Shown here piece after piece: positions 31,445-62,294 of a stretch of 64,000 bases of DNA (positions within the stretch are counted from its first letter, which is position 1; the number at the start of each line of letters is the position of its first letter). Made by a program: the position numbers and the translations under genes. The notes under the pieces were generated by a model. The model saw only the letters and a program-made list of their open reading frames with translations, was not told the origin of the DNA and searched no databases. Source of the DNA: Planoprotostelium fungivorum (Eukaryota > Evosea > Variosea > Cavosteliida > Cavosteliaceae); assembly GCA_003024175.1 (NCBI GenBank), contig MDYQ01000004.1, positions 124,001-188,000 on the forward strand, in the 5' to 3' direction.

Positions 31445-32134
31445 TCACAGTAGAGTACACTTATCTTTCCTTCTCTTCATCTTCTTTTCTGTCTCTGGTG
31501 TGATGGTGTCGTCGAGCTGTTTGGCCAGGTCCAAGAACAACTCATCGATGCCGTGTCCAGTCTTCGCAGAGCACTCGAAGAAGCTTACGTTCAATGTCTT
31601 TGCCAACTTCTCTCCATCATCTCGTGACACTTCCCGTATGTCGGTCGCATCACATTTGTTGCCGCACAAAACGGCGGGCACCTGACTTCGAATGAGAATG
31701 CATTGTCTAGCGATCGATGACTTCATACGTTGTCGGCGTCTTTCACCAAAAGGAGTTGTCGGTGAACGGCTTTGATCTCTTCGAGAGATGATTCAGACGT
31801 GACGGAATAGACCAGGACGAAACCTTTCCCGCTCTTCATGTAAACGTCTTTCAATGATGTGAACTGTTCAGTTCCAGCCGTATCTGTGGGAATTCATACA
31901 TCGGAGGGTGTTTTTAGCTCACCTAGGATGTCTAATGTGATTTGTCTTCCAGTGATTTGTACATACTTTGAATACTGATCTTCGATGGTGGGATCATATC
32001 GTGAAAGGAAGACTGCTCGGATATACCTGACTACCATCGCACTCTTGCCTTTTGGGAGTGTCAGCATTCTTCACACCGAGACCTCACCGACCGACTCCAC
32101 CAGCTCCAAAGACGATGACCTTGTATCCTCTCAT
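31445..32134 (-). CDS. Ras-family small GTPase with CAAX box
   Basis: The start MRGYKVIVFGAGGVG is split by an intron inside the P-loop; GKSAMVVRYIRAVFLSRYDP follows, then TIEDQY (switch I). Switch II is DTAGTEQFTSLKDVYMKSG. The guanine-specificity motif reads LCGNKCD (N-K-x-D) and the last motif is ECSAKTG. The tail is basic and ends CTLL, a CAAX box whose last Leu favours geranylgeranylation, so the protein should be membrane-anchored. The first residues are short, as in Rap/Ras. The Gly-rich loop starts G-A-G-G-V-G, as in wild-type Ras. A window neighbour is a RhoGAP protein, but the two are not obviously linked. Confidence 0.9.
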
Positions 32135-35603: not shown

Positions 35604-36299
35604 GCGATCTATATTTAGTTGTTGTGCAGCGAATGGAAGTCGTGATAGCTGGTGGAATCACTCCGAAAGGCAGATACAAAATCTCAGTCGCTGCGATGGT
35701 AGATCGTTCTTCGTTTGGTTGTGGATTAGCGTTCTTTCCTACACTAACCCTCTGAGTTGTTCCACAGTTCGTTCAAGTGACACCTTCGCAGCCAAAATAT
35801 ACGAAAATCGTCTGTTCTTAAGTCTAATTGTATAGAATGCGCGCGCAAAAAATTTTCATTTTTCAAAAAGGGCCCCGGCGCGCGGATAACGCTGCCCCAA
35901 CCGCATGGACCCTCCTCTTTCCGCCTCGACTTGTCTTAGATCAAGGCACGAGCAATAGGGTATGAGTATATCTATCTATGTATCCTCCTTCCTACCTTCT
36001 AGAATGCTCTTCCATTTTCCATCGATCCTCCCTCTCGAGACTCTCAACCTATGCCAATCGACTAGTAAGATCCATTGACTCATATACATCCATTCTTTTC
36101 CTCGATCCACATCCATTTATCATCTCGATTATATGGGTGATCATGTACTCACACTGACCTTTCAGAGTGTCTATAACTCTTTCTAATGCTACGGCAGGTG
36201 TCTCCGGGCCGTTCGGAAGGCGGAGGTTGTTATTCGGAGACCCACAATTTTTCGCTATCAACTTCACGGTCACCTGACTCTGCGGGCACCTCAGGAAGC
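35604..36299. other. Intergenic stretch with U2 promoter region
   Basis: It probably holds the 5' end of the RhoGAP gene and the U2 snRNA promoter. A GC-rich patch (GGGCCCCGGCGCGCGG) lies near 35870. TTAGATCAAGG at about 35937 repeats a stretch of U2 exon 1; this may be chance. No convincing gene was seen. Confidence 0.4.
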
Positions 36300-36562
36300 A
36301 TCTTCTCGGCTTTTTAAAGCTTAGATCAAGGTACGGTTGCGATTTCTCTTCACCATAACACATCATCATCACTCATCAGGATTTCTGACTCGAAAACAGT
36401 GTAGTATCTGTTCTTATCAGTTTAGTCGACTGATAGCCCTGGGTACTCCAGGGCATCCGACTAAATTAATTTTTCTCTCGGGTGAGAGGGTCAACACCGG
36501 AGCTTGCGAAGGTGCCTCTTACAAGGATGAATTCAGCATTGCACTGAAGCTGACTTTCGTCC
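36300..36562 (+). ncRNA. U2 spliceosomal snRNA gene, interrupted by a GT-AG intron
   Basis: U2 pairs with the intron branch site in the spliceosome. Exon 1 (36300-36330) ends GCTTAGATCAAG, and exon 2 starts TGTAGTATCTGTTC at 36400. Joined, these give over 30 consecutive bases matching canonical U2 from AGATCAAG through the branch-recognition GTAGTA to TTATCAGTTTA. Downstream are stem IIa (TATCAG with CTGATA), stem IIb (GCCCTGGG / TCCAGGGC), an Sm-like site (AATTTTTC near 36469), a stem III region, and a closing stem IV (GGATGAA with TTTCGTCC) enclosing CATTGCA. Mature length is about 194 nt, close to the usual 185-195. The ends are estimated from the structure. Confidence 0.93.
36331..36399 (+). 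other. Spliceosomal-type intron inside U2 snRNA
   Basis: A 69-nt insert starts GTACGG and ends AAACAG, with a branch-like CTGAC about 15 nt before the 3' end. Size and ends match the mRNA introns of neighbouring genes. It splits U2 between the positions equal to human nt 31 and 32, one base before GTAGTA. Confidence 0.88.
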
Positions 36563-37394
36563 ACCGTTCAAATAATCAAAAGATACGAAAATGTAAGATA
36601 ATTGTCTGGAAACACAAACAACGAGGAAAATCACTCGTAGTGCAAAAAGTGGGTGATGATCGAGGTGAAGTAATCGGCGATCAGAGACGTGATCACACCG
36701 GAAAAGGGACCGATCGAAGGTGAGAACGGGACAACATAGATCAAGGGCTGGGTGGATACCAATGGATCCATCCTCTTATTTCCAATCGATCGGTGAGCAA
36801 TAGATGTGATGCAGCCTCAATCTCATATTCTGCTGAAAAAAGACGTTCACCCTCCCTTATTCGTTATCTGCTGTTGTTGGAATGAGAGATGAATGTGTCT
36901 GTCTGCGCTGTTCCTTAACACGAAGGTAGAATTGTATCCTCTTCCTATCAAATGATCCTCTGTAACATGCTGAGTTGGGGGTGCTGCTGTGGATGAATTG
37001 TGACCCTGCGCGAACAAGTTTGCCCGCTCTGTGGACGTAAACCTTCGAAATCACTCGGCGCATCGTGGTGGACGACGAGCTTCAACCGAGACTCCACGCA
37101 GTGTTTCACGTCGGACTAATTCCGCGAACGGTGGAGTCTGTATCCACCTGATCCTGCCGTTGCATGGTAGTAAAGTGGAGGGTAGAACTGTACTAGCGAT
37201 CATACATGGATGTTCCCTGCAGCACGCCTGCTTCAGTCAGCATCATTCTTCCACCTCTTCTTGCTGCAAATCGAAGTCAATCCTCAACCATCTAGCACGT
37301 GGGAAGTGGTCATCATCCCGTGATGGAGACCTCACGATAGGCAAAATCCATATCACAGATCATTTTATGTACATCTCATCAGCTCCCCTCGATT
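36563..37394. other. Intergenic stretch downstream of U2
   Basis: Open frames on both strands (for example 37031-37525 plus, 36857-37063 minus) show no motif or codon pattern I can support. TAGATCAAGG recurs near 36737. I see no further snRNA. Confidence 0.35.
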
Positions 37395-61639: not shown

Positions 61640-61822
61640 TTAGAATCGAAATCACACCGTTTCATTTCAGAATGACTTCCAAACTAGCACCAACGCTACA
61701 TTCACGCTGCATCGTCAAGATCGGCCTGTGACAACAAGCTGGGCACACGAGGGGTAGTCACAGATATAGGCAAGCGGAATAAACCACCTCCACCGCTGGT
61801 TAAACAAAAGTCGCAATACCAA

Positions 61823-61895
61823 GGTTTCGTGGTGTAGTTGGTTATCACGCATGCTTCACACGCATGAGGTCCCCGGTTCGATCCCGGGCGGAACC
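61823..61895 (+). tRNA. tRNA-Val (anticodon CAC)
   Basis: The 73-nt cloverleaf is complete: acceptor GGTTTCG/CGGAACC, D-arm GTGTAGTTGGTTATCAC, anticodon stem CATGC/GCATG with loop TTCACAC, T-arm CCCGGTTCGATCCCGGG. No intron, no encoded CCA. A TTTT run just after the gene can end Pol III transcription. Confidence 0.96.
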
Positions 61896-62109
61896 ATTTT
61901 GATAATCTGTTTTCATGTATAATTATCCTCAGGATAAAAGGTATTTATTTTGATTTCCAAATACTCAACCACGTTTGTTGGACCGCGGTCAAGAATGTCT
62001 TCAACAGAAAGCTCAAGGTAAGAGAGAGGAAAGGAATGGCCACACTCAGAAAAAATTATACTGCACTATTATATATATATAACAATAGCTTGGATTTGTA
62101 AAAAATGAT

Positions 62110-62182
62110 GGTTCCGCCCGGGATCGAACCGGGGACCTCATGCGTGTGAAGCATGCGTGATAACCAACTACACCACGAAACC
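62110..62182 (-). tRNA. tRNA-Val (anticodon CAC), identical second copy
   Basis: It is identical over all 73 nt to the copy at 61823 but on the other strand; the two point toward each other with 214 bp between them. A run of six T follows within 10 nt (a Pol III terminator). Both share ACCAA just upstream. Confidence 0.96.
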
Positions 62183-62294
62183 TTGGTGCCTGATCGATGC
62201 ACTTTCTCATAGAATTATCTAAAAACCACCTCATATTATCTTATCCGAATCCCTTCTTCGATCAGTAGTAAAACAGGACGCTGCCTTCGTTTCT

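Follow-up and report, generated by a model that had tools for sequence, protein, structure and literature searches.

The window analysed here, i.e., the whole stretch of 64,000 nt corresponding to C387:124001-188000, carries at positions 36300-36569 a gene for the U2 snRNA that is split by a 69-nt insert with the marks of a U2-type spliceosomal intron. The gene is one of nine U2 copies (class B) that are interrupted at one and the same site, and the genome holds six further copies that are intact. As judged from the comparison of these copies, class B very probably represents functional U2 genes that require splicing, with a U2-type intron after nucleotide 31 in all nine. The original prediction had described a U2 gene broken at 36330/36331 by 69 nt, and this description is borne out both by the Rfam U2 model (RF00004) and by the sequence itself; the start of the gene at 36300 also stands, while its end has to be moved from 36562 to a place near 36569.

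Structure of the split gene and its relatives in the genome

The features of the locus are given below with their positions in the window and their strand.

35838..36650, +: unit of about 0.85 kb common to class B loci (blastn of the window against the U2 loci, alignment)
35852..35871, +: distal element ATTTTCATTTTTCAAAAAGG, 448 nt before U2
36241..36248, +: CCCACAAT, DUSE-type promoter box, beginning 59 nt before U2
36300..36330, +: U2 exon 1, 31 nt, with the U6-pairing strand CTTCTCG; identical in 9/9 class B places
36331..36399, +: U2-type spliceosomal intron, 69 nt (site shared by 9/9 class B copies, conservation of splice positions, matrix scores)
36385..36389, +: branch motif CTGAC with the branch A at 36388, after which 11 nt remain to the intron end
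36400..36569, +: U2 exon 2, 170 nt, with branch recognition, stems IIa, IIb, III and IV and the Sm site (RF00004, class B alignment, stem check)
36401..36406, +: GUAGUA, the branch-site recognition sequence of U2, read from the sequence
36468..36475, +: AATTTTTC, Sm-like site, read from the sequence
36577..36583, +: CAAAAGA, 3'-box-like element past the mature end; AAAAGA recurs at U2 copies

The unspliced window gives a single match to RF00004, at 36368-36569 (85.3 bits, E 2.1e-15), which passes the curated cut-off of 46 bits, as does exon 2 alone with 81.1 bits. In this match of the unspliced DNA exon 2 is fitted and the model positions 1-31 are forced onto letters of the intron, which could be taken to mean that the 69 nt are kept in the RNA, either as an internal expansion or with an alternative 5' domain that starts inside the insert. 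Such a retention is hardly credible, however: the forced part yields only about 4 bits (85.3 vs 81.1), the true, canonical 5' domain ATCTTCTCGGCTTTTTAAAGCTTAGATCAAG lies directly upstream of the insert with the promoter box at the right distance, and the letters that are conserved inside the insert are the splice positions.

Without the 69 nt, the gene in the window reads GCTTAGATCAAG followed directly by TGTAGTATCTGTTCTTATCAG, and the joined exons of class B run GATCAAG and then TGTAGTATCTG. The expectation that removal of the insert restores a canonical U2 is thus upheld by the unbroken 19-mer across the junction, AGATCAAGTGTAGTATCTG, which occurs six times elsewhere in the genome, in the six intact copies, with none for the reversed control. 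The insertion point follows U2 nucleotide 31 and lies exactly one nucleotide before GUAGUA (exon 2 starts as U-GUAGUA), in agreement with the predicted position next to the branch-recognition sequence. The insert begins with the donor GTACGG and ends in AAACAG (acceptor CAG), and these ends, together with the branch-like motif CTGAC, were likewise confirmed and are by comparison the marks of a U2-type spliceosomal intron. As for the predicted folding of the remainder, stems IIa, IIb, III and IV were checked, and the Sm-like site is read in the sequence. The strand CTTCTCG of exon 1 finds its complement, CGAGAAG, in the U6 gene L023.

A search of the whole assembly (36.86 Mb in 471 contigs) with RF00004 gave at least 15 U2 matches, of which 14 pass the cut-off and one is partial; all 15 are contained in the 14 regions that were fetched. 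Nine of these are class B copies, with introns of 65, 68 and, seven times, 69 nt. The other six, namely L009-L013 and L020, which is more diverged, were found intact by an exact search for the unbroken junction (reversed control 0), which answers the proposal to look in the assembly for other uninterrupted copies. Split copies are located on contigs C23, C90, C94, C120, C387, and C451, and intact ones on C27, C123, and C234. A genome-wide search with the class B exon 1 pattern, allowing up to three mismatches, returned only the nine class B places, where it has to be noted that this pattern cannot match the intact copies, which are one base shorter there. Locus L019 (C387:109800-112500) contains two class B copies 322 nt apart, representing either a tandem pair or an assembly join; the first of them is broken off at an assembly N, and the exon counts do not include it.

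The two classes can also be compared as RNAs. Against RF00004, exon 2 taken by itself reaches 81.1 bits for the class B copy of the window and 58.9 bits for the intact class A copy L011, where the stretch started one base later. Stems IIa, IIb, III, and IV are kept in both classes (stem III as checked without L020), the pairing is preserved where the classes differ by two-sided changes, at a single pair each in stems IIb and III, and the U6-complementary strand is present in both. Judged by its sequence, class B is therefore not the degenerate class.

The unit of about 0.85 kb that is common to the class B loci varies slightly in its limits among copies, two of which align in two pieces, while the five close intact copies have flanks that are unlike one another beyond the promoter box (mean mismatch 0.55 over 150 nt). 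From this shared unit, and from the unlike flanks of the intact copies, it follows that class B has probably spread by duplication of an intron-bearing unit.

Conservation of the exons and of the splice signals

Among the eight complete class B copies, none of the 31 columns of exon 1 and only 4 of the 170 columns of exon 2 are variable. The intron, by comparison, has 40 variable columns out of 77, the 150 nt upstream have 103 out of 162, and the 60 nt downstream have 34 out of 60. Expressed as mean pairwise mismatch, the values are 0.000 for exon 1 and 0.009 for exon 2, against 0.27 for the intron, 0.30 upstream, and 0.26 downstream. Near-invariant exons around a drifting intron argue for selection on the joined RNA, a pattern that gene conversion alone would hardly produce.

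The intron itself is not uniformly variable. The nine class B introns represent seven distinct sequences, across which the first 8 and the last 18 positions were compared. Of the eight positions expected to be critical for splicing (+1, +2, +5, the C, T, and A of the branch motif, and the A and G at the intron end), seven are invariant, as opposed to 0 of the 18 others (Fisher p 1.2e-5, which is indicative only, since the rows share descent), and the sole exception is +2, owing to a GC donor in L021. Eight of the introns are accordingly GT-AG and one is GC-AG, and all nine have G at +5 and a CTRAY motif with 11 nt left to the intron end. These comparisons suggest that the class B introns are under selection at their splice positions.

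This pattern bears on the alternative in which class B is an amplified family of pseudogenes and all working U2 is derived from the six intact copies. The presence of intact copies would agree with that, as would the sharing of about 0.85 kb among class B units, which is what duplicated non-functional DNA might show, and the class B copy in L019 that is broken off at an N. A pseudogene family would, however, be expected to drift evenly, and the divergence per site is 0.000 and 0.009 in the exons against 0.26-0.30 in intron and flanks; the splice positions, the promoter box, and the 3' box are retained; and class B is closer to the Rfam consensus than class A. The original prediction had regarded an intact U2 locus elsewhere, together with a lack of spliced RNA from this copy, as the sign of a pseudogene; intact loci do exist, but the comparison of the copies argues against pseudogene status, and we consider it improbable.

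The U2 introns were also compared with the genome's own introns, using as a reference 30 Ras-family loci that were mapped by splice-aware alignment with knowledge of the reading frame and of GT/GC..AG, and with no knowledge of the branch. This yielded 99 introns, of which 90 distinct ones from 27 loci were used for the splice matrices; the long reading frames of the window itself had proved too short to serve as a gene set. One Ras-family GTPase gene, at 31514-32049 on the minus strand of the window and about 4 kb from U2 (locus L083), has three short introns mapped. The mapped introns have a median length of 47.5 nt (35-151), their commonest donor is GTGAGT (25 of 90), and 54 of the 90 have CTNAY 9-25 nt before the end (CTRAY in 33), at a median distance of 11. 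On the matrices, of which the one for the branch was built from CTNAY introns only and thus favors that motif, the nine U2 introns fall at percentiles 79, 30, 62, 62, 61, 61, 61, 9, and 32 of the 90. All nine U2 donors score under the mapped-intron mean, that of the GC-AG copy far under it (0.3 vs 7.7), and the length of 65-69 nt exceeds the median. As a null set served 2353 GT/GC..AG pairs of 65, 68, or 69 nt taken from both strands of the window, with true introns left in; 0.25% of them reach the score of the U2 intron in the window, and 4.7% that of the GC-AG copy. On these grounds the U2 introns appear to resemble the genome's own introns, though with weaker donors and a length above the median.

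Promoters, flanking elements and other snRNA genes

The promoter box CCCACAAT occurs once in the window, counting both strands, and is located 58-60 nt upstream in 15/15 U2 copies. A broader version of the box, CCA[CT]AAT, precedes 15 of the 16 U1, U4, U5, and U6 genes by 58-64 nt, the exception being the variant U4 gene L046. For dictyostelids, PMC7919456 describes DUSE (Dictyostelium upstream sequence element) at about 60 nt from the start, and the box found here fits DUSE by its similar distance of about 60 nt upstream. An amoeba as the host, as hinted at in the original prediction, is made plausible by this DUSE-type promoter. On the other side of the gene, AAAAGA follows 8-9 nt past the mature end in 13 of the 14 complete U2 copies (it is absent at L020), and it is found downstream of 12 of the 15 U1, U4, and U5 genes.

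Further upstream, the distal element ATTTTCATTTTTCAAAAAGG, with up to one mismatch, has seven places in the genome, all of them 0.38-0.45 kb before a class B U2 gene (reversed control 0), and a search of the 611 nt from 35700 to 36310 against Rfam, with E up to 1, gave no match. At about 0.1 kb before the class B U2 genes (36183-36197 in the window), and upstream of the promoter box, there is a CTAAY motif whose A is followed by 11 nt that end in CAG, with GT coming next; this arrangement, which has the geometry of an acceptor, is present in 7/7 aligned class B copies. A U2-like piece, CTTAGATCAAGGCACG, was observed at 35935-35950 in the window (equalled by 2 of 200 shuffles), in L021 a 17-mer identical to part of exon 2 lies about 494 nt before U2 (0 of 200 shuffles as good), and L015 has a near match to U2 upstream (5 of 200 shuffles as good), with nothing beyond chance in the other 4 of 7 copies. 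These pieces are perhaps the remains of an older tandem U2.

No introns were seen in the six U1, three U4, and six U5 genes or in the main U6 gene, all of which match their models end to end and have about the length of the model. The U6 gene L023 is directly followed by a second, weaker U6-like match, L024 (95.1 and 63 bits; C74:56400-56602 for the two together). The U1 genes (L032-L037) come in two forms, with ATACTCACCTG in four of the six and ATACTTACCTG in two. The ATACTCACCTG form would pair with GTGAGT donors, and the mapped introns have G at +3 in 65 of 90 cases; U1 and the donor consensus may have changed together. An unrelated observation in the window concerns two facing tRNA genes, at 61818-61897 and 62108-62187, which form an inverted pair of 80 bp with 100% identity.

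The existence of two types of U1 and U4, and the fact that no contig holds both U2 classes, would fit an assembly that combines a species with split U2 and another with intact U2, in which case the circularity of a U2 that is needed for its own production would be real in one of them. Against this, the PRP8 domain PF10596 was matched once, as was an 18S pattern allowing up to two mismatches, the scores of five U5 genes agree and that of the sixth comes close, and the two classes use one promoter box at the same distance and are alike in G+C (0.438-0.490). A weaker point is that GTGAGT exceeds GTAAGT on both kinds of contigs (e.g., 46:12 in the window, 15:1 and 16:2 on contigs with intact copies), since GTGAGT in the window barely exceeds its reversed control (46 vs 41) and the low count is that of GTAAGT (12 vs 45). 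A mixture of two species is unlikely, and that it accounts for the split and intact copies strikes us as very improbable.

Proposed mechanism, origin and known systems

In the model that we favor, in which class B genes are functional and require splicing, they would be transcribed from the DUSE-type promoter as an intron-bearing pre-U2, from which the ordinary spliceosome would remove the 65-69 nt, and the joined RNA would then enter a canonical U2 snRNP. The spliceosome could start with the U2 of the six intact copies, with class B constituting a splicing-dependent share of the U2 pool. The original prediction held that a working spliceosome would strictly need spliced U2 in order to make U2, which is not supported, six uninterrupted copies being present in one assembly; as these need no splicing, they relieve the circularity, and for the same reason class B need not be essential. 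Sequence differences between the two classes fall in stems IIb and III and near the Sm site. A more far-reaching proposal, that the class B share of the pool reports the splicing capacity (through the weak donors) while the intact copies set a floor, giving two distinct U2 snRNPs whose ratio tracks growth or the life-cycle stage, is doubtful.

As to origin, the intron would most likely have entered one ancestor of class B, following which the unit spread by duplication; alternatively, it may have been lost from the intact copies instead of being gained in class B. When the intron was used as a query against the genome (E up to 0.001), the six matches were all class B U2, and no source intron was found outside the class B loci in this search, which also missed three of the nine class B introns. 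An origin by reverse splicing into U2, as had been suggested from the place of the insertion, is possible. Introns that interrupt spliceosomal RNAs are of interest for the question of how introns are gained, e.g., by reverse splicing near the catalytic center, and for that of how a machine may depend on its own product.

Takahashi et al. are said to have described in 1993, for Rhodotorula hasegawae, which is a basidiomycete yeast, a U2 intron that is about 60 nt long and directly follows the branch-recognition sequence. The present case is like that of R. hasegawae in having an mRNA-type intron inside a U2 snRNA gene, and differs from it, if the reported site is right, in that the intron is one nucleotide upstream of GUAGUA, is found in nine copies next to six intact paralogues, and belongs probably to an amoeba. 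Taken with the Rhodotorula intron, which reportedly lies on the other side of the branch-recognition element, the present one suggests that insertion at this spot happened twice, in lineages far apart. PMC2586383 cites Takahashi et al. for an intron of the mRNA type in U2 of this yeast. According to PMC5832005, a study of fungi, U3 and U6 are the small structured RNAs in which an intron is known to be frequent. The fungal U6 introns (PMC5832005, citing Canzler et al. 2016) are likewise spliceosomal introns in an RNA of the spliceosome, the difference being that there U6 is split, whereas here U2 is split and the U6 gene uninterrupted. Those of the fungal U3 snoRNA genes (PMC5832005) are ordinary spliceosomal introns as well, located close to the 5' end of an RNA that is capped and structured; U3, however, stands outside the spliceosome, so that its intron exerts no feedback on splicing, unlike that of U2 here. 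Utopia, described in PMC4640811 as a retrotransposon lineage that inserts into U2 genes, including those of Acanthamoeba, is comparable in that DNA is inserted at a specific place of U2, and differs in being a retrotransposon as opposed to an insert of 65-69 nt with splice signals; as a candidate for the insert it was rejected because of this small size.

In the part of the open-licence literature that was covered, no report of a U2 intron in amoebae or elsewhere outside fungi was found. What appears to be new in comparison with the known systems is, from the sequence evidence, another insertion site in U2, a host that is probably outside the fungi, and a multi-copy split class beside intact paralogues. 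Split and intact U2 are thereby brought together in one genome, with a copy number that is enough to show selection on splicing and with sequence differences between classes A and B that make class-specific tests feasible.
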